From the NCBI RefSeq assembly GCF_014526325.1, contig NZ_JACNMJ010000001.1, positions 744,001-808,000 of the forward strand: a DNA stretch of 64,000 nucleotides, given 5' to 3'. Numbering within the stretch: position 1 is the stretch's first letter; each line of letters begins with the position of its first letter. This stretch comes from Psychroserpens algicola (lineage in GTDB: Bacteria > Bacteroidota > Bacteroidia > Flavobacteriales > Flavobacteriaceae). The notes beneath the pieces are model-generated. The model was not told the DNA's origin. It made no database searches and saw nothing but the letters and a program-made list of their open reading frames with translations. Below, piece by piece: positions 15,085 through 52,598 of this stretch. Both the position numbers and the translations under genes were made by a program.

Positions 15085-18000
15085 TTATTTAATCACTACT
15101 TTTTCAGTTCTCTCTTGTATACCATTCTTTAGAGTTACCACGTATACTCCTGTTGACATTGACGACACATCTATACGATGGGTATTTTGATCTTTACTTA
15201 AAGACCATGTTTTAATCAACCTACCTTGTATATCATGTATTGTGAGTTGCGTATCTTTTAGTAGATTTCCTTTAACAAACAATGTTTTAGGCTGAGTTGT
15301 AGTATACACCTCTATTGTGCTCGATTCTGTACTAGATGTGCTTAAAGTAGACTCGGCAAACCTTAAATAAAATCGTCCAGTACCAGAAATATTAGTATTA
15401 GCTGTAAAAGTATAGTCTGAGGTATTCAATAACGTAAATGTGTTAGTAAGGTTATCCTCTAAATATACATCTACATCTTGAGAAAGGGTACGTTCAGCAA
15501 TACTGATCGCGACTTGTTGACCTTCGGAAACATGAACTCCAAGAGGAATAGCAACGTCAGATAAATTTGTCGTACCTATAGACTGAATTCCATAGTTACG
15601 TCCCTGATTCTCTTCTACTAGATGAGAATAGATTGAAAAACCTGGAGCGGTTCCAAATAATCCAGAGTCATAATTATAGTCTAATCCTAAAGATGCATTA
15701 TCAGTAAAATAAAAATCGGTAAAATATAATTTAGAAGTACCACTCATTTGCAACTTTAAATGTGAAATAGCCGAACTATTATCTTGTCTTCCTAAAATGA
15801 AATCATCATCACTTCCAATAGTTCTCATAATTGGTGAAAATTCGATGTCTTCCTGATTGAAAGCAGAAGCAATTAAGAACCCTTGTCCAGGTGTAATTTT
15901 TGCATTCGGGTTCGCATCAGAATAGGCTTGATTCCAAATGGTCCAACCATCAGAAGCATCTCCATCATAACCATAAATTCCTGATCTCTGAGCATCAAAC
16001 TTAGAGTTGTTAGCGCTTAAAAAGTCTGACAAGTTTATATAAGACGGATATGGGTTTCCAATTAAGTTCCATTCAGGATTTGTTGGTCCAGATATCACAA
16101 CCGTTGATTTTACATTATTGGTCTTCACTGCACCTTTAAACGTAAAAGTACTTGCATCTGTTGATGCAGCTCTATAACCTATTCCTGCTTCTAACGGAGC
16201 TGTTTCAGTATTTGTATATATTACATAGGTATCAGTAACTTTATCAAATGGTCCAAATAAAAATAAGGTATTGGCTCCATTACTTAATATGTTAGGATTT
16301 GCAGCCCTAAAATCAATAAATGATTCTCCATAAACCGGAGGAGCAATTAAATCATTTCCACCTGTACTTGCAGTTGAGTTTACATGACGCTTATACTCTA
16401 CAATTCCGAAAACAGAATTTGTAACTATTAAACTAGAATACTCATCAGAATCAGATTCTAAACTCACATCATCACTAGAAATTAAATCGCCATTAACGGT
16501 TAAAGATTTTGATTTTTCAACAATAATTTCAGCACCATCAAAAACTTTGATATTATTAATTTGAACATCATCTGTTACATTGTAAACGCCATCTAAAACT
16601 AAAGCATTTTCTATTACTGTAGTTGGAGAAGGTGCATAAGGTGTCCATGAGTTATTAGTAAAAATCAAGTCATCAGAACCTGCAAGTCTTATAGAATAAT
16701 CTTCCACTTCACCATACTGAAATTCTTCACAAGCATCTGGAACGTCGTTAAATTTAAACGATACACGCATTCTTGTAACTTCTTCTAGAATATTACCTGT
16801 ATCAGGAACTGTAAATGACCCAGAAACTGAAGCATTAGAATTAGGTCCAGCTGTAAAAACTTGCTCACCTGAGTCTAAGAAATCTCCATCTCTATTATAA
16901 TCAATCCATACTGCATAGCCTTCATTATATGGTCCACCAATAAAAGTTGGAGTAATGGTAATAGTATAAGTTTGACTCTTACGTAAAATAGTGCTTATTC
17001 CTGTAAAATCAGAATAAAATTGTGCTCCTGAGGTGTTATCAATTGTATTCAACTGAACACGACTTATATACTCAAAATCAACATTCGAACTTTCTGAAAC
17101 ACAATATCCCGTAACGTCATCTAAAGTTGTGAAAGTAATTGCTGCGGCATATTCTGAAGTCTCAGAACTAGAACATTTACTTCTTATTTCTACGATATAT
17201 TCCGTAAGTGGTAATAGCGCTGTTAAGTTTTGTGTATTTGTTGAAATATCTAAAATATCATTCCATATTGGATTTCCATATTCACGATATCTTAAGTCAA
17301 AATCAAATGGAGGTAAGGCATCCCAATTAATTGTTGCTCCAGTAGCTGTTATTGAGTTAACAGCTAGCCCTGTTGGTTCGGCTGGAGGCGTTCCTAAATT
17401 TTCCCACTCACAAATCATATTGTTAAATTGATAATCATCCCAGCAATTCGTTGCTGTTGGCTCAATTGGTTCTGTGCCTTCGTTAACCCAAGTACAATAT
17501 GTTGGAGATGTATCATCATTGTCAAATTGATAGTCATCCCAGCAGTTCGTTGCTGTTGGCTCAATTGGCTCTGTACCTTGGTTAACCCATGTACAATACG
17601 TCGGAGATGTATCATCATTGTCTAATTGATAATCGTCCCAGCAGTTTGTCGCTACTGGTTCTATTGGCTCTGTACCTTGGTTAACCCATGTACAATACGT
17701 TGGAGATGTATCGTCAGTATCAAATTGATAATCGTCCCAGCAGTTTGTTGCTATTGGTTCTACTGGCTCCGTACCTTGATTAACCCATGTGCAATACGTT
17801 GGAGATGTATCATCATTGTCAAATTGATAATCATCCCAGCAGTTTGTCGCTACTGGCTCGATTGGCTCTGTACCTTGGTTAACCCATGTACAATACGTTG
17901 GAGATGTATCATCATTGTCTAACTGATAATCGTCCCAGCAGTTTGTCGCTACTGGCTCGATTGGTTCTGTTCCTTGGTTGACCCATGTACAATATGTTGG

Positions 18001-21000
18001 CGAAGTATCATCAGTATCAAATTGATAATCGTCCCAGCAGTTTGTCGCTACTGGCTCTATTGGTTCTGTACCTTGGTTGACCCATGTACAATATGTTGGT
18101 GAAGTATCATTAGTATCAAATTGATAATCATCCCAACAGTTTGTCGCAGTTGGTTCTACTGGTTGAGTGCCACTAACATCCCACATACACGTTGTGTAAT
18201 TATAGTTAGCAGTTTCCCAACATTCTAATCCTGATGGAGCATCTTGTAATGTGATAGTAACTACAGCTGTACATGTGTCTACATTTCCATTGGTGTCAGT
18301 CACAGTAAGTGTAACGTTATTATCACCTTCATCAGCACATGTGAAACCTGTTTGAGATGCCGCAATTGAAGCTATACCACAATTATCAGTAGATCCATTA
18401 TTTATTTGAGCAGCTGTAATTGTAGCATTTCCTGAAGCATCTAACTGAACAGTAATATTTTGACACACAGCTACCGGGTTTTGGTTATCGACAACTACAT
18501 TTACAGTAAATGATGCTGTATTTGTGTTTCCATTTCCATCGTCTACTGAATAACTGATGGTTGTTAATCCATCAGGAAATGTGCTTCCACTATTAAGACC
18601 TGTTCCGTCAGTTCTTACAGGTGTTAAGCCTGTTCCGCAATTATCAGTAACGGTAGGATCTGTCCATGTTGGCTGATTATTTCCGCAGGTTAATGTAATA
18701 TTAGCAGGAACATTAACAAATTCAGGATCTACTTGATCTTCAACAGTAACTGTTGCGATACATGTATCTGTTTGATTATCTCCATCGGTCACTGTCAATG
18801 TCACATCAACAGGTGTTCCAATATCACTACAATCAAAAGTATCTATATCGATACTTAAGTCGGTAATTAGAACATCATCTGTAGAACCACCATCAACATC
18901 TGCAGCAACTATAGTTGCATTACCAGCAGCATCTAACTGAACTGTTATGTTTTGGCAAAGAGCGATTGGTGGATTAGATCCTGTGGCTGGATCGGCTTCT
19001 ATGTTAATATTATCAAGAGCCATATCACTACTCCAAGACGAACCAGTTACACCTCTAAATCGAATTAATATAACTTTACCATCATAAGAGGAAAGGTCAA
19101 TATCAGCAGCTGTTTTCCAAGTATTAGCACTATCGTCATTAATTATCGTTTCTGTAGTCCAATTAAGACCATCATCTTCACTAACTTCTAGAGCTACATA
19201 TCCTATTTCTGCTGGGTTTTCTGTTGAGCTACCTAAATCTGCACCAAACATATGGTAATCAAAACTTATTTTAGCATTTTCCCAATCTGTAAAATCGATA
19301 CAATCACTGGTAATGATTGCTGTTTTTAACGGACTACCAGCAGGTGTCACATTAGTAGATGCTTCTGTATATACATACCAGGTAGATCCAGATCCTGTTG
19401 TTGGTCCTGTATTATTTGAAGGTGTACCACCACTGTCTCTGGTCCAATCGATATCATCATCGGTATTATTAACACCCTGTTTCCATTCATTAATGAAACT
19501 TGCATTATTTTCAAAACCTTGTGTGTATGGGAATGACGATATAGTACCATCTAAACAAGCTTCCAGAGTTGTAAATACTTCAGAGCTTGTATATGCTGAA
19601 GTCGATGCGGTACACTTTGTTCTTACCTGAACTTCGTATTCAGTAAAATTAGTTAATCCACTAATAGCATAAGTATTCATGGTTAAGTCTAAAACGTCCG
19701 TCCAAGGTGTTGTACCAGTTTCTCTATATCTTAAATCGTAAGTTGCCGAAGGGACTACATCCCAAGTAACATCAGCTGTTGATGTCGTAACATTACTTAC
19801 AACAACATTAGTTGGTACACTGGTAACACATGGAATCTTAATTTCTGTGATTTTAAAATCATCAAAGGTAAACCCTTCAAAGTCGGCATTATAATATGAA
19901 TCTTGTCTGTTTGATGAATCTGTAAAGAATACAAACCTGAAATTAACAGCACTTTGTTGAGAGAATGTCGAATTGTTTGAAGCATCAATGACAATTTCTT
20001 CCATATACCATCGGTCTTGAGTATCACCATCGTATAATGGTTCGCCATCAGGTTGGAAATCGTTATTGGTATTGCTTTTACCTGAATAGGTGTTATTCTC
20101 ATCTGGCGCACCAGGTTTTGTGAGTTTTCCGCAAAGTGGTGTCCAGGTACTTCCATCTAATGAGGCTTCTAATTGTACGTAATCAAAACTACGCTCTAAA
20201 TCCCATTTTGCATAGAATTGTACAAGAGCTGTAGAAACACCTGTTAAATCAATTGTTGGATTTAACTGTATTCCATTAGCTAAGCTATTTGAGTATGTCG
20301 CTGCACTGTTTGATTTAATTGCAGAGTTACCAGTAGAGTTTGGGTAGTTATCTGTAGTAGTACTCCATGTACCACCAGTTCCTACAGCTGTCCAGTTTGA
20401 TAAGTTGTCGGTTGCATCGTCAAAAATAACATTTGTTGGTGCATAAGTCTTTTTTATATTGGCTTCATATAATACGTTATCAGACGCATAATCATTGGTG
20501 AATACAACTTTAAACTCGACCTCATCATCAGCCTGAATCCCACCATTTAACGTATAAGGAATGCTAACAAATCGCTGGTCTAATACCTGAGCAGCTGAAA
20601 AACTTTCAGTTACCGAGTTTGTAGCGCCAGGAATAGTAATATTTGATGAAACTGCAGTTACAGTAACTGTAAAATCTGAAGCTTTCTGACCAAGATTTTC
20701 GATAGCAAATTCTAAATTTCCTGATGTTGCTGTTATATCACTTTGATTTAAGTCGTGTATTTTTCCGTATTTACCACTAAAATATGCAGCTAAAAAGTTC
20801 ATACGCATGGCACGTTTAGCAATTGGTAAGAAATTAGAAGGCGCTGGCCAAAACCCACTACCAGTAGAACCTGCTTCAGACCCTGTTCCATTTTCTGGAG
20901 TCCAGGCTAAGGTTTCTTTTCCAGACCCTGTTCCTGTTGGTGTACCATTAGCACTTGTTCCTGCTGGACCACCAAGCATCCAGTCATTCATATTTCCACT

Positions 21001-22212
21001 GTTAAGAGAACTAATTGAGGTACTTGGTCCATGAGCATACCTGTTATAATAGGTCATATCATGGTTGTATTTTGAGTATTCGTCTGGTCTTGGATTGGTA
21101 ATGTTTGTTCCTGCATAAGCATGGAGCATCGCATTTTTAAAGGAGTGATGATTTAAAGCTAATTCGAAATCATGGAGTAAAAAGAAATCACGCATAATTT
21201 GTGTTTCATTTTCTGAAAATGGACCTGTACCCATATAGGTTTCACTACATGAGTCTGTCGATGAACCACCATTTCCCCAATAATAGGCTGAGTTTCTGTT
21301 TAAATCAATACCTTCAACATATGTACCACATGATCCAGGAGCTGATGTGTTTCTGTTTTTACGTTGTAATCCACCTCCATTTGGCGCAACAGTTTGATTG
21401 TATACAAATCCATCTGGATTAAAGACAGGGATAAAATATAACGCCTGATTATTAACTAAGTTTCTTATCGCTGGATCGGTATCGTAATTTTCTAATAAGT
21501 ACCACATGAAAAACAACTGATTCATCACTGTAGCTGATTCTCTTGAGTGAATAAGCGATTGGTATAAGGTCTCTGGTTCACCAGCTTCATCTAAATCTGG
21601 ATTGTCAGAAATTCTAACATAATAAATAGTTCTGCCTTCAAGTGTGGTTTGGTTAGAAGGAGATGCGTCTGCTTTTGCTGAAATCAGATTTGGATACTGA
21701 GCACGCATATCATCTAATTCGTCTAGAACCATTTGATAAGTTAAACAACCTCCAAATGAATTAGGTGAACTGTTAGGATTTAAGTTCCAGTTTGCAGGAG
21801 TTGCCCAATCGATCTCATCACATCCATCATATTGACCAACATTGTTTAAAACCTCACTCACACTATACCTAGCATTTTGTAAGGCCATTTGTTTTTCTTG
21901 TTCTAACTCTAAACGAGCTTTAGGTAAGTCTGAAATTGCTCTTTCACTGTAGAATTCTTCTAAATCATCAATTAAAACGGTATAGCTTATACCTTGATTA
22001 GATAATTGATTAAGGTCATTTTGACTTAATTCTATTTGTAACTTATCCTCAGTAAATATAGCACCACAGGTCATATCTATACCTGCATTATCCAGTGATT
22101 GAATTACTGAATCATTAATATTGTTAATTGTGACTCTTTTGTAAATATCTTGCGAAAAGGAATTTTGAATCACTAATAGTAGTAAAACAAATAAGCAGGT
22201 AATTTTTCTCAT
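15085..22212 (-). CDS. Giant T9SS-exported M14 zinc carboxypeptidase with HYR, Cys/Trp repeats, FN3 and GEVED
   Basis: A 2375-residue exported peptidase. A clear signal peptide (residues 1-20, ending NSFSQ) leads into an M14 carboxypeptidase domain (about 155-480): zinc ligands H and E in IHSRES (about 221-224), the NR pair in GIDLNRNS, the third ligand in ALNHHSF, and a glutamate in TPENGTGSEAG at the catalytic position. Next come an FN3 domain (about 795-885), a MAM/jelly-roll-like region (about 890-1075), HYR/Ig-like repeats (about 1085-1320), seven 33-residue Cys/Trp repeats with degenerate flanking copies (about 1330-1600), another FN3, a GEVED domain (about 1705-1845), the 450-residue module shared with the downstream propeller protein, and a T9SS type A sorting domain (about 2295-2375). 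All active-site residues seem present, so it is probably an active secreted carboxypeptidase. Most of the length is for surface display or binding. Confidence 0.92.
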   Translation of the reverse strand: MRKITCLFVLLLLVIQNSFSQDIYKRVTINNINDSVIQSLDNAGIDMTCGAIFTEDKLQIELSQNDLNQLSNQGISYTVLIDDLEEFYSERAISDLPKARLELEQEKQMALQNARYSVSEVLNNVGQYDGCDEIDWATPANWNLNPNSSPNSFGGCLTYQMVLDELDDMRAQYPNLISAKADASPSNQTTLEGRTIYYVRISDNPDLDEAGEPETLYQSLIHSRESATVMNQLFFMWYLLENYDTDPAIRNLVNNQALYFIPVFNPDGFVYNQTVAPNGGGLQRKNRNTSAPGSCGTYVEGIDLNRNSAYYWGNGGSSTDSCSETYMGTGPFSENETQIMRDFFLLHDFELALNHHSFKNAMLHAYAGTNITNPRPDEYSKYNHDMTYYNRYAHGPSTSISSLNSGNMNDWMLGGPAGTSANGTPTGTGSGKETLAWTPENGTGSEAGSTGSGFWPAPSNFLPIAKRAMRMNFLAAYFSGKYGKIHDLNQSDITATSGNLEFAIENLGQKASDFTVTVTAVSSNITIPGATNSVTESFSAAQVLDQRFVSIPYTLNGGIQADDEVEFKVVFTNDYASDNVLYEANIKKTYAPTNVIFDDATDNLSNWTAVGTGGTWSTTTDNYPNSTGNSAIKSNSAATYSNSLANGIQLNPTIDLTGVSTALVQFYAKWDLERSFDYVQLEASLDGSTWTPLCGKLTKPGAPDENNTYSGKSNTNNDFQPDGEPLYDGDTQDRWYMEEIVIDASNNSTFSQQSAVNFRFVFFTDSSNRQDSYYNADFEGFTFDDFKITEIKIPCVTSVPTNVVVSNVTTSTADVTWDVVPSATYDLRYRETGTTPWTDVLDLTMNTYAISGLTNFTEYEVQVRTKCTASTSAYTSSEVFTTLEACLDGTISSFPYTQGFENNASFINEWKQGVNNTDDDIDWTRDSGGTPSNNTGPTTGSGSTWYVYTEASTNVTPAGSPLKTAIITSDCIDFTDWENAKISFDYHMFGADLGSSTENPAEIGYVALEVSEDDGLNWTTETIINDDSANTWKTAADIDLSSYDGKVILIRFRGVTGSSWSSDMALDNINIEADPATGSNPPIALCQNITVQLDAAGNATIVAADVDGGSTDDVLITDLSIDIDTFDCSDIGTPVDVTLTVTDGDNQTDTCIATVTVEDQVDPEFVNVPANITLTCGNNQPTWTDPTVTDNCGTGLTPVRTDGTGLNSGSTFPDGLTTISYSVDDGNGNTNTASFTVNVVVDNQNPVAVCQNITVQLDASGNATITAAQINNGSTDNCGIASIAASQTGFTCADEGDNNVTLTVTDTNGNVDTCTAVVTITLQDAPSGLECWETANYNYTTCMWDVSGTQPVEPTATNCWDDYQFDTNDTSPTYCTWVNQGTEPIEPVATNCWDDYQFDTDDTSPTYCTWVNQGTEPIEPVATNCWDDYQLDNDDTSPTYCTWVNQGTEPIEPVATNCWDDYQFDNDDTSPTYCTWVNQGTEPVEPIATNCWDDYQFDTDDTSPTYCTWVNQGTEPIEPVATNCWDDYQLDNDDTSPTYCTWVNQGTEPIEPTATNCWDDYQFDNDDTSPTYCTWVNEGTEPIEPTATNCWDDYQFNNMICEWENLGTPPAEPTGLAVNSITATGATINWDALPPFDFDLRYREYGNPIWNDILDISTNTQNLTALLPLTEYIVEIRSKCSSSETSEYAAAITFTTLDDVTGYCVSESSNVDFEYISRVQLNTIDNTSGAQFYSDFTGISTILRKSQTYTITITPTFIGGPYNEGYAVWIDYNRDGDFLDSGEQVFTAGPNSNASVSGSFTVPDTGNILEEVTRMRVSFKFNDVPDACEEFQYGEVEDYSIRLAGSDDLIFTNNSWTPYAPSPTTVIENALVLDGVYNVTDDVQINNIKVFDGAEIIVEKSKSLTVNGDLISSDDVSLESDSDEYSSLIVTNSVFGIVEYKRHVNSTASTGGNDLIAPPVYGESFIDFRAANPNILSNGANTLFLFGPFDKVTDTYVIYTNTETAPLEAGIGYRAASTDASTFTFKGAVKTNNVKSTVVISGPTNPEWNLIGNPYPSYINLSDFLSANNSKFDAQRSGIYGYDGDASDGWTIWNQAYSDANPNAKITPGQGFLIASAFNQEDIEFSPIMRTIGSDDDFILGRQDNSSAISHLKLQMSGTSKLYFTDFYFTDNASLGLDYNYDSGLFGTAPGFSIYSHLVEENQGRNYGIQSIGTTNLSDVAIPLGVHVSEGQQVAISIAERTLSQDVDVYLEDNLTNTFTLLNTSDYTFTANTNISGTGRFYLRFAESTLSTSSTESSTIEVYTTTQPKTLFVKGNLLKDTQLTIHDIQGRLIKTWSLSKDQNTHRIDVSSMSTGVYVVTLKNGIQERTEKVVIK
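17406..18228 (-). repeat. In-frame 99-bp tandem repeats (33-residue Cys/Trp units)
   Basis: Inside the M14 gene the text recurs exactly every 99 bp: the marker TGATAATC/GTCCCAGCA starts at 17429, 17528, 17627, 17726, 17825, 17924, 18023 and 18122. Each unit encodes one copy of ATNCWDDYQFD.DDTSPTYC followed by TWVNQGTEPIEP; the copies at both ends are degenerate. The variants (FDT, LDN, FDN; VEP/IEP) are mixed between copies, as expected for unequal exchange or conversion. The repeats keep the antisense frame open too, which produces false + strand reading frames. Confidence 0.93.
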
Positions 22213-48666: not shown

Positions 48667-48728
48667 TCGCTATCTATTTTATTTCTTTATATTATCTTAA
48701 ATCGTTTACTTAGGATTTAAAATCGGCT

Positions 48729-48736
48729 TACCTTTG
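48729..48736 (+). promoter_or_regulatory. Bacteroidota-type -7 promoter box of the thioesterase gene
   Basis: TACCTTTG fits TAnnTTTG, 23 bp before the ATG at 48760. A TTTAC stretch lies about 20 bp upstream at the -33 place. Confidence 0.5.
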
Positions 48737-48759
48737 CACGAATTAAACCCAACAGTTAA

Positions 48760-49272
48760 ATGGAACCAAGAACAGCATTTCAGTCTAAAACAATTATGAC
48801 CGATTTGGTATTACCAAGTGAAACCAATCCTATAAATAATCTTTTTGGTGGTGAATTGTTAGCGCGAATGGACCGAGCTGCAAGTATTGCTGCTCGTCGT
48901 CATAGCCGACGTATTGTCGTAACTGCTTCTGTAAATCATGTCGCTTTTAACCGATCTATTCCTTTAGGAAGTGTTGTCACTATTGAAGCAAAAGTTTCAA
49001 GGGCATTTACAAGTTCTATGGAAGTCTTTCTTGATGTCTGGATTGAAGACCGAGAATCTGGTGAATGTATTAAAGCTAATGAAGCCATTTATACATTTGT
49101 AGCTGTTGATGAAACCGGTCGTCCTGTAAAGGTTCCTGAACTCATTGCTGAAACTAAGCTAGAAAAAGAACGCTATGATGCTGCTTTGCGACGCAAGCAA
49201 TTAAGTTTAGTTGTGGCTGGGAAAATGAAGCCTGGCGATGCTACTGAGTTAAAAGCCTTATTTTTTGATTAA
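48760..49272 (+). CDS. Acyl-CoA thioesterase (hotdog, YciA/BACH type)
   Basis: Hydrolyses acyl-CoA to free fatty acid and CoA. The 170-residue protein has the hotdog signature NPINNLFGGELLARMDRAAS (about 23-42), with the conserved Asn and Asp near the active site, and the NHVAFNRSIPLGSVV strand. The C-terminus DATELKALFFD is its own end, but the DNA coding this end has been copied repeatedly downstream: the last 38 bases of the gene are the first unit of the repeat array starting at 49235. The protein itself seems intact. Confidence 0.93.
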   Translation: MEPRTAFQSKTIMTDLVLPSETNPINNLFGGELLARMDRAASIAARRHSRRIVVTASVNHVAFNRSIPLGSVVTIEAKVSRAFTSSMEVFLDVWIEDRESGECIKANEAIYTFVAVDETGRPVKVPELIAETKLEKERYDAALRRKQLSLVVAGKMKPGDATELKALFFD

Positions 49273-50601
49273 ACTTTTGGTATGTAAGCTCTACTGATAA
49301 ACTCAACTTATGAGACCCTGAAACAAGTTCAGGGTGACGTTAGCGATGCTGCCCGATTAAAAGCCCTATTTATTGATTTAACTTTTGGTGTTTAATCCTT
49401 AATTATCTATGTGAATTCTAATTGATGGTAATCTCTCTGAATATTATCCTATACTTATCATACGCCCGTTATCAATCTTATAAACAATGGTTTTTCGTCA
49501 TTCTGAACTCGTTTCAGAATCTCATAACGGAACAATATTATTGTGAGACCCTGAAACAAGTTCAAGGTGACGTTAGCGATGCTACTAGGTTAAAAGCCTT
49601 GTTTTTTGATTAAAATTTTGGCATGTAAGCTCTACTGATAAACTCAACTTGTGGGACCCTGAAACAAGTTCAGGGTGACGTTAGTAATGCCACGCGACTA
49701 AAAGCCCTATTTATTGATTAACCTTTTAGCATTAAATCCTTATTAACTACCAATGTGAATTTTAATTGATGGTAATCTCTCTGAGTATTATCCTATGCTT
49801 ATCAAACTCCCGTTTATCAATCTTATAAACAATGTTTTTCGTCATTCTGAACTCGTTTCAGAATCTCATAACGGAACAATATTCTTGTAGGACCCTCAAA
49901 CAAGTTCAGGGTGACGTTAGCGATGCCACCCGACTAAAAGCCCTATTTATTGATTTAACTTTTGGCATTTAATCCTTAACTACCAATGTGAATTCTAACT
50001 GATGGTAATCTCTCTGAGTATTATCCTATGCTTATCAAACTCCCGTTTATCAATCTTATAAACAATGTTTTTCGTCATTCTGAACTCGTTTCAGAATCTC
50101 ATAACGGAACAATATTCTTGTAGGACCCTCAAACAAGTTCAGGGTGACGTTAGCGATGCTACTAGGTTAAAAGCCTTGTTTTTTGATTAAAATTTTGGCA
50201 TGTAAGCTCTACTGATAAACTCAACTTGTGGGACCCTGAAACAAGTTCAGGGTGACGTTAGAGATTCCACCCGATTAAAAGCCCTATTTATTGATTAACC
50301 TTTTAGCATTAAATCCTTAACTACCAATGTGAATTCTAATTGATGGTGATCTCTCTGAGTATTATCCTATGCATATCAAACTCCTGTTATCAATCTTATA
50401 AACAATGGTTTTTCGTCATTCTGAACTCGTTTCAGAATCTCATAACGGAACAGTATTATTGTGGGACCCTGAAACAAGTTCAGGGTGACGTTAGCAATGC
50501 TACTGGGTTAAAAGCCTTATTTTTTGATTAAAATTTTGGCATGTAAGCTCTACTGATAAACTCAACTTGTGAGACCTTGAAACAAGTTCAAGGTGACGTT
50601 A
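49235..50601. repeat. Composite tandem array of REP-type hairpins and copied gene 3' ends
   Basis: Two unit types alternate as A1 B1 A2 B2 B3 A3 B4 A4. A units are each 108 bp: 49235-49342, 49576-49683, 50153-50260, 50494-50601. B units are 233, 236, 233 and 233 bp: 49343-49575, 49684-49919, 49920-50152, 50261-50493. Every unit opens with a copy of the thioesterase 3' end (GCGATGCTACT..TTAAAAGC) and ends with hairpin CCCTGAAACAAGTTCAGGG plus GTGACGTTA. B units add an opposite hairpin ATTCTGAACTCGTTTCAGAAT, so each B holds two hairpins in inverted orientation, like a REPIN. The array fills the whole gap to the envC end (50609). No gene is supported inside; two 63-codon frames arise from the unit itself. 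Confidence 0.92.
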
Positions 50602-50608
50602 GTAAAGT

Positions 50609-51826
50609 TTACATCTTATAAATCCATGAAGCTGGATTTTCAGGTTTGGAATCTTTATAGATATTGAATCCTAACATAGATTCACCTTCGCTATTGGTAA
50701 ACACCTCTCCTATCACCTGATTTCTTGTGACTTTATCACCTGGTTTTACATAAAACTTAGATAAATTTCTATAAATAGTAATATAATTACCATGTCTTAT
50801 CATGATAATTGGATTGTAATTTTTTTGAACAATCACTTTAGAAACTTCACCTTCAAAAACGGCTTTTACTTTTGCACTCTTTTCGGTAGCAATCCTTACA
50901 CCATTACTCTTTATTTTAACCGTTGGATCAATAGGAGATTGTTGAGTTCCATAGCGTACTTTCACTACACCTCGTTCAACAGGCCAAGGTAGTTTTCCCT
51001 TATTTGAGGCAAAATTCTTAGCTATTATTTTTGCTTTCGGTGTTAATGCAAAACCTTTAGAAGACGAAGAGTTTCCTGCTTTTCTATTAGATTCAGCGAT
51101 AGCCTCTTTGATGACGCGTTCAATTTCTTTATCAATCTTATCAATTTGCTGCTGTGTTTGTCTGATTTTTGACGCATACGAACTCATGTTTTTTCGTATG
51201 GAAGCCATTAATTTTTCTTGCTCTTTTAATTCTTTTTCGAGTTCTTTTTTGGTAATTCTGTTCTCAGCAACCAGTTGATCTTTATCTTTTTTCTGACGTA
51301 TTAAGTCGGTATTTAATTCTTGTAATTTTAAAGTTTTAGCTTTAATCAAATCGCCTTGCTCTTTTTGATAATCGGCATACTGTTTAATGTATTGCAATCT
51401 TTTGTATGCTTGCTTAAAGTCTTCTGAAGATAGAAGAAACATCACTCTACTTTGTTCAGATTTACTCTTATACGATTTGACAATCATTTCAGAATAATCT
51501 TGTTTCAGTGTTGATAATTGATTTCTCAAACTTGAAATTTCATTTTGATTAGCGTTAATTTCACGAGTCAATAAGTTGGCCTGATCATTAGTCACTTTTA
51601 TTAAATCTCGTCTCACACTTACTTTGTAATTGAGATCTTCAACCAGCGAGATAACCGATTTTTCCTTTTTTTGATCTGAAAATAATAATGAATTGAGCTG
51701 ATTTAATTCCTTCTGAAATTTGAGACGTTTAGCCTCTAGTGCCTTTTGCTTTTCACTTTGTGCTTGTATTGAAAAACTATTCAATACGACTAACAGAACA
51801 AGTATATAGGTTGATTTATTTCGCAT
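50609..51826 (-). CDS. envC: Murein hydrolase activator EnvC-like protein, degenerate LytM domain
   Basis: A 405-residue exported protein: signal peptide (about 1-22), long coiled coil (about 25-250) rich in K, E, Q and L, and a C-terminal LytM/M23 domain (about 285-405). The zinc ligands are lost: the first motif reads SNGVRIATE where an active enzyme has H..GxD, and the last reads MLGFNIYKD where HLHFE is expected. This is the pattern of EnvC, which activates amidases at the division septum rather than cutting itself. The start overlaps the DUF4292 gene by 11 bp. Confidence 0.88.
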   Translation of the reverse strand: MRNKSTYILVLLVVLNSFSIQAQSEKQKALEAKRLKFQKELNQLNSLLFSDQKKEKSVISLVEDLNYKVSVRRDLIKVTNDQANLLTREINANQNEISSLRNQLSTLKQDYSEMIVKSYKSKSEQSRVMFLLSSEDFKQAYKRLQYIKQYADYQKEQGDLIKAKTLKLQELNTDLIRQKKDKDQLVAENRITKKELEKELKEQEKLMASIRKNMSSYASKIRQTQQQIDKIDKEIERVIKEAIAESNRKAGNSSSSKGFALTPKAKIIAKNFASNKGKLPWPVERGVVKVRYGTQQSPIDPTVKIKSNGVRIATEKSAKVKAVFEGEVSKVIVQKNYNPIIMIRHGNYITIYRNLSKFYVKPGDKVTRNQVIGEVFTNSEGESMLGFNIYKDSKPENPASWIYKM

Positions 51827-52598
51827 TTTCTAAAATTATTTCTTCAAAACCAGAAGGTATTCTAAATGGGAATCTCACATCTTCGTTAACAGAAACCGAT
51901 TTATACTCCATGACCACATTAAGTTCTTCGGAATCTTCAACAGCTATAATCTTAAGGTTTTTGGGTAGTATCTCTTTTTCGACTTGCTGATAACTCAAGT
52001 AATCTATTTGCAGGAATCGCTTTTTTAGAGGTTGAAGCAATTGCTGAGAATCCATTTTAAAATGTGATGGATTAAATAGTAAAAACAACTCTAGTAAAGC
52101 ACCTTGGTTTTTAGGTTGAAGAATATAGGATTTGTCATTGGTAGAAATGATATAATTATCATCTTTTAAATTAAAAAGCGCTTCTCCAATTAATAAACTT
52201 TGAACCTTTTTATAATCGAGGTCAATTCCCAATAAATCACTTAGTAGCTTATAATCACCATCAAAATACTGGTTATTGATTTTGTCATAAAACTTAACAC
52301 TATCTGGTGTAATCATTGCTCTGGCAAGACCAAGCGTTGCGCTAATCCATATGGTCTTATCCTTTTCCATACGTAAATTAACGGTATATGACGATTCTTT
52401 TAAGTCTTGAATTACATCAATCTTAACTTTAGCCTGAAGTGTTTTAAATTTGGCATCTTGCTTACCATTTTCTTTAATTAATTGTCTTGCAGATAACTTG
52501 TCGTCGACCTCTCCTTTTGTTACAATACTGCGAGCAGATTTACAGGAAACACATAGTCCAACAAACATACACACTAATCCAATGTTTAAAATCCTCAT
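51816..52598 (-). CDS. DUF4292 lipoprotein
   Basis: A 260-residue lipoprotein with lipobox CVSC (Cys about 19) after a hydrophobic signal. The body matches the DUF4292 family, which has a LolA/LppX-like size and strand pattern; that fold relation is recalled, not tested. Segments such as VNLRMEKDKTIWISATLG.ARA and LLGIDLDYKKVQSLLIGEAL are visible. It may carry lipids or lipoproteins across the periplasm. In one operon with the TPR and EnvC-like genes (3-bp gap upstream, 11-bp overlap downstream). Confidence 0.8.
   Translation of the reverse strand: MRILNIGLVCMFVGLCVSCKSARSIVTKGEVDDKLSARQLIKENGKQDAKFKTLQAKVKIDVIQDLKESSYTVNLRMEKDKTIWISATLGLARAMITPDSVKFYDKINNQYFDGDYKLLSDLLGIDLDYKKVQSLLIGEALFNLKDDNYIISTNDKSYILQPKNQGALLELFLLFNPSHFKMDSQQLLQPLKKRFLQIDYLSYQQVEKEILPKNLKIIAVEDSEELNVVMEYKSVSVNEDVRFPFRIPSGFEEIILENAK

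Follow-up and report, generated by a model that had tools for sequence, protein, structure and literature searches.

Two published accounts of REP elements come closest to the locus studied here. In the sections of Di Nocera et al. (2013, PMC3733652) on which we draw, CGTC-tagged REPs carry CGTC at one end, a stem of 8-9 bp starting with AT, a loop of 4-5 bases, and a short unpaired tail that is CCA in most but not all cases. As far as those sections go, these elements are apparently without a dedicated transposase (PMC3733652), and in-gene palindromes of Rickettsia are mentioned alongside them. The second account, that of Bertels and Rainey (2011), describes tandem REPIN clusters including flanking sequences in Pseudomonas fluorescens SBW25 (PMC3116915, in the part consulted).

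Units of the array

Positions 49235-50601 of the window, the entire 64-kb stretch of DNA that was analysed, are filled by eight units arranged as A B A B B A B A, of which four measure 108 bp, three 233 bp and one 236 bp. This array is real. Hairpins are repeated head to tail in it together with local flanking DNA, as in a tandem REP cluster (minisatellite), which makes it an ordinary case of its kind. A first-pass annotation had already given this order and these sizes, and the unit-by-unit comparison, TRF and a repeat finder all agreed with it; the two programs located the same array with periods of 341/344 (A+B) and 233. It can also be written as (AB)(AB)(B)(AB)(A). The array starts within the last codons of an acyl-CoA thioesterase gene (4HBT, YciA-like; ORF at 48760-49272, plus strand; Pfam 4HBT 6.8e-17), which form the beginning of A1. 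On the other side lies the convergent envC-like M23 peptidase gene (ORF at 50609-51826, minus strand; Peptidase_M23 3.8e-18).

All units were read on the plus strand. A1 (49235-49342, 108 bp) consists of the thioesterase gene's own tail, a spacer and one hairpin, and B1 (49343-49575, 233 bp) of a tail copy, a spacer, a lost-gene remnant and two inverted hairpins. They are followed by A2 (49576-49683, 108 bp), B2 (49684-49919, 236 bp), B3 (49920-50152, 233 bp), A3 (50153-50260, 108 bp), B4 (50261-50493, 233 bp) and the final unit A4 (50494-50601, 108 bp).

The tails needed some revision of the first-pass annotation, in which every unit opened with a copied thioesterase end reading ..DATRLKALFFD. 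Seven units do open with such a copy, but the tail in A1 belongs to the gene itself, which brings the number of copies to seven instead of eight. The Arg is present in six copies, whereas the gene itself reads DATELKALFFD and the remaining copy has Gly. All seven copies therefore carry R or G where the gene has Glu, and at all 102 thioesterase loci examined in relatives (a few of them from the same genomes) this position was Glu, which indicates that the copies have not been maintained as coding sequence. The unit joins in the window read GTTAGCGATGCTACT, and the tail of the thioesterase gene reads GGCGATGCTACT.

Each B unit carries CGTCATTCTGAACTCGTTTCAGAATCTCA and an inverted partner, with the CGTC tags facing outward. 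In B1 the pair spans 49492-49575, with cores at 49502-49518 (minus) and 49550-49566 (plus). The B1 pair folded with energies of -33.2/-37.6 kcal/mol (z -6.6/-7.1). The hairpin core YCTGAAACNAGTTCAGR, allowing at most one mismatch, occurred 11 times in the 64-kb window, every time inside the array, and never in 100 dinucleotide shuffles. Inspection by eye showed two changes in the twelfth hairpin, which belongs to A4. In the left hairpin of B the sequence is CGTC-ATTCTGAA-CTCGT-TTCAGAAT, and it folds into 8 pairs with a 5-base loop. Its partner, CGTC-ACCCTGAA-CTTGT-TTCAGGGT, departs in the second base of the stem. The left hairpin has the tag, stem and loop of a CGTC-tagged REP, and its tail is CTCA instead of CCA. 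Judged by their bases and predicted fold, the hairpins fit most of the description in the sections of PMC3733652 used here, the departures being the CTCA tail and the AC at the start of the partner's stem.

The A units were alike in 101-108 of 108 positions, and the B units in 208 of 231 up to 224 of 233. A2 and A3 are identical (108/108) and lie inside a 119-bp exact repeat. B2 and B3 have the private changes that had been reported for them, and a 160-bp exact stretch common to the two supports a recent event. When the four B units were aligned, sites 37, 39, 45 and 51 grouped B1 with B3, while sites 15, 202, 207 and 215 grouped B1 with B4. These conflicting pairings, four of each kind, imply a mosaic relationship among the B units. 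The private differences that units carry, together with the ordered mosaic pattern, also argue against an assembly artefact. An artefact would be in keeping with a draft genome (3.8 Mb, 17 contigs, of which the window covers G000:C8:744001-808000) and with the exact repeats of 160 and 119 bp inside the array; one tail-copy match elsewhere (L078) adjoins a run of N, so such artefacts do occur. However, misassembly of repeats collapses them more often than it expands them, and we regard an artefact as very improbable.

Elsewhere in the window, a 99-bp tandem repeat of 7.4 copies (17414-18147) lies within a minus-strand ORF of 2375 aa (15085-22212). This ORF contains 33-residue repeats (TNCWDDYQF..TYCTWVNQGTEPIEPVA) and resembles a secreted zinc carboxypeptidase-like protein, the family being assigned by eye.

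The sister junction and a lost gene

Among 22 relatives in the genus, G013 had the closest thioesterase (99% protein identity), and it is referred to below as the sister. Its junction begins with the thioesterase tail and a like spacer. A 205-aa gene on the minus strand comes next, then one inverted hairpin pair, and after it three repeats of the envC tail and envC itself. The thioesterase tail does not recur behind this single stretch. When window positions 48701-51900 were compared with G013 by BLAST, the B units aligned to both ends of the stretch, and nothing aligned to the middle of the 205-aa gene. All four B units matched the sister gene by DNA in the remnant (79-83%). A search of the 23 genus genomes with the 205-aa protein returned the protein itself and two places in the genome of the window, one in B2 (49750-49860, minus strand; E 5.5e-8, 62% identity) and one in B3 (49983-50093, minus strand; E 1.9e-7, 59% identity). 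Both cover residues 169-205, the C-terminal end, with two stops; the protein search reported none in B1 or B4. Beyond the B-unit remnants of the window, no other copy of the gene was found in the 23 genomes. The sister gene (L128:3143-3760) had no Pfam match. As judged from these alignments, each B unit is composed of a tail, a spacer, an apparently dead 3' remnant of a gene intact in the sister, and a hairpin pair. This remnant is absent from the first-pass description of the array.

The sister junction has the tail and the hairpin pair once each, in agreement with the earlier proposal that the gene end and the hairpins were amplified together. The sequence that follows the hairpin pair in the sister is GCTAGCGAGGCTATC. 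The segment right behind the pair, GCGAGGCTATC, and GCGATGCTACT of the thioesterase tail share 8 of 11 bases when compared by eye, and the exchange point previously placed near GCGATGCTACT is supported by this similarity. The units are closer to each other than to the sister, which indicates that growth or homogenisation of the array postdates the split. This before-state rests on one relative, and a collapsed array in G013 could give the same junction.

Dispersed hairpins and RAYT genes

Exact hairpin cores numbered 28 in the genome of the window (8 in the array, 20 outside) and 24 in the sister. We examined 25 sites outside the array, including all 20 exact cores found there. Twenty-two were intergenic, as with the dispersed intergenic copies of CGTC-tagged REPs, and three were in open frames; none of the 25 had an array. 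The four B units are head-head dimers and the A units single hairpins, and a second hairpin match was present within 160 bp at 4 of the 25 other sites. Across the phylum, the exact 29-base hairpin occurred in 3 of 148 genomes, that of the window included, a pattern too strict for judging spread. The three open frames with a hairpin have 324, 1144 and 186 codons (L149:2023, L157:2023 and L159:2070), and in two of them the hairpin reads NNEILKQVQDD in frame. These two resemble the in-gene palindromes of Rickettsia.

Matches to the A unit elsewhere in the genome covered the hairpin part alone (query 59-103 of 111), meaning that the hairpin is dispersed without the tail. This bears on the idea that small elements integrated one after another at the 3' end of the thioesterase gene, where every element would have supplied its own tail copy, in the manner of integrases acting at tRNA genes. 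A gene tail at the start of each unit and a gene that is still intact would be expected of such integration. However, no match to the A unit outside the array contained the tail, the sister has a single stretch with no second tail behind it, and B consists in part of debris from a local gene. Site-specific integration is thus highly unlikely.

The first-pass annotation had also connected the array with RAYT transposases, and this connection did not hold. In favour of a RAYT having mobilised and amplified a REPIN array are the REPIN-like shape of the hairpin pairs, in inverted orientation in the B units, and the one RAYT above the model cut-off in the genome of the window. A Y1_Tnp match was found in 5 of the 23 genus genomes, and the same five matched the RAYT model, four of them above its cut-off. 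The hairpin does not accompany these genes: allowing up to two mismatches, it was present at none of the 20 fetched Y1/RAYT loci (about 2-3.5 kb each, some being the same gene found by both models). The RAYT of the window's genome sits between inverted copies of an unrelated palindrome, CCTCGCTAGCGCTCGTCTGTGACGAGTG, whose core occurs six times in that genome, all within 3 kb at this place, and once each in G001 and G007. Abundance of the hairpin did not follow the RAYT either, with exact core counts of 28, 4, 4, 5 and 0 in genomes with RAYT matches, and of 24 (G013), 11 (G008), 10 (G011) and 9 (G005) in genomes without them. We therefore consider movement by a RAYT to have little chance of being correct. 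On the present sequence comparisons, the REPIN label holds for the shape and not for the RAYT link, since the pair is inverted and the hairpin flanks no RAYT gene in 20 of 20 loci.

The only RAYT of the genome (L143/L215, G000:C8 about 900349-903171) lies amid six copies of the palindrome core ACGAGCGCTAGCGAGG. The segment CGCTAGCGAGGC is common to the sister junction and this palindrome, which may be chance.

Growth at a convergent gene junction

The array is most probably a neutral minisatellite situated where two convergent genes meet, and it would have grown with no transposase involved. Most of the minus-strand gene would have been deleted, with its 3' end left behind. The likeness between GCGATGCTACT and GCGAGGCTATC may then have led to replication slippage or strand exchange, duplicating the tail, remnant and hairpin pair together; the number of shared bases seems enough for slippage or illegitimate exchange. 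Hairpins may promote such events through replication stalling. One copy could subsequently have been shortened to the one-hairpin A form, and the A+B pairs would have been multiplied and reshuffled by unequal exchange and conversion. Two origins of the A spacer were tried. Its derivation from B by one deletion was unsupported (score 120, against a mean of 113.7 and a maximum of 125 in 20 shuffles), and derivation from the sister stretch gave no signal above shuffles.

A selected array might instead act on RNA or DNA, for example by protecting the thioesterase or envC mRNA or by holding a protein. The strong hairpins on both strands between two convergent genes would suit such a role, and REPs are thought to act in RNA, according to the sections of PMC3733652 used here. 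However, a consensus scan found no terminator-like site (0, against a shuffle mean of 1.2), and no Rfam family came near its cut-off. The sister has just one pair, a scan of the 21 other genus genomes found no thioesterase-tail copy, and the units drift freely. Selection for a function is accordingly improbable, and in itself the array probably has no essential role. The RNA family search gave four weak microRNA matches, all scoring far under the cut-off, which were attributed to chance, given the long hairpins. Promoter-like sites numbered 13, compared with 7.4 (sd 3.2) in shuffles.

The content of the gap between thioesterase and envC is very changeable among the relatives. A small lipoprotein-like gene (by eye) fills it in L087, L088, L089, L090, L092, L104 and L107. 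The envC tail is repeated as units of 40-41 bp in at least 8 of the 23 genus genomes, seven by scan plus G013; the scan reported no such repeat in the genome of the window. The unit comprises the last codons of envC and about 20 bp (L087, L088, L089, L094, L096, L098, L103 and L128), and G020 and G009 have one unit each. Mean likeness of these units was 0.89 within genomes (14 pairs) versus 0.78 between genomes (139 pairs), which fits one old origin followed by homogenisation.

The base rate of tail copies was estimated from the last 20 bases of each ORF, at 85% identity and up to 600 bp downstream. Copies were found for 4 of 766 ORFs in the window plus 80 loci, with none in the mid-gene control. 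In the window plus 20 stretches of its own genome, the thioesterase was the only case among 327 ORFs (control 0), leaving 0 of 326 for the other ORFs sampled there. Twenty stretches of five relatives gave 1 of 285, an unrelated gene (L199). Within the 80 loci alone, 3 of 130 thioesterase/envC ORFs had copies versus 0 of 589 others (Fisher P 0.006), a weak result, as L078 borders on a run of N, for which it was discounted, and L007 and L008 apparently represent genomes G002 and G009.

The rarity of tail copies elsewhere favours a local tendency at this junction, although the envC repeats would count as one event if they arose only once. The junction might accordingly be a hot spot at which gene 3' ends are copied into minisatellites, the thioesterase tail here and the envC tail in at least 8 of the 23 genus genomes, with hairpins at convergent ends as a possible driver through replication stalling. 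We put this forward tentatively and consider it rather unlikely.

With the sister as the before-state, the array illustrates how a REP cluster may expand when no transposase takes part, by local deletion, tail-carrying tandem duplication and exchange inside the array. A gene followed by copies of its own tail is not necessarily a site of integration. If the number of units varies, the array would be usable for telling strains apart. Repeat growth of this sort is ordinary, and its history can be followed here with unusual clarity.

Comparison with described systems

Mycobacterial MIRU repeats and the BIME-2 elements of E. coli are intergenic units that vary in number, and MIRUs overlap the ends of neighbouring genes. 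They are unrelated to the array in sequence, and are likened to it by description.

The earlier view that a higher-order array is unusual was overstated, since tandem REPIN clusters including flanking sequences are in print (PMC3116915, in the part consulted). What stands of it is that the captured gene tail, like the envC-tail repeats at the same junction, is mildly unusual. CGTC-tagged REPs (Di Nocera et al. 2013, PMC3733652), as far as the sections used here describe them, share with the array the CGTC tag, an 8-bp stem and a 5-base loop. Head-head dimers are common among them, and the four B units have this form. They are reported in Bacteroidetes, and they likewise form large clusters reiterated with flanking DNA, apparently with no dedicated transposase. 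The array differs from them in its CTCA tail in place of the usual CCA, and in one B hairpin whose stem starts with AC and not AT, in a comparison made with the published description. The SBW25 clusters (PMC3116915) are similar in having ordered tandem hairpin pairs with flanking sequence, extending over more than 700 bp in the largest. In the part of that account consulted, three clusters adjoin RAYT genes, whereas our array has no RAYT link and its repeated flank contains a gene tail and a gene remnant.
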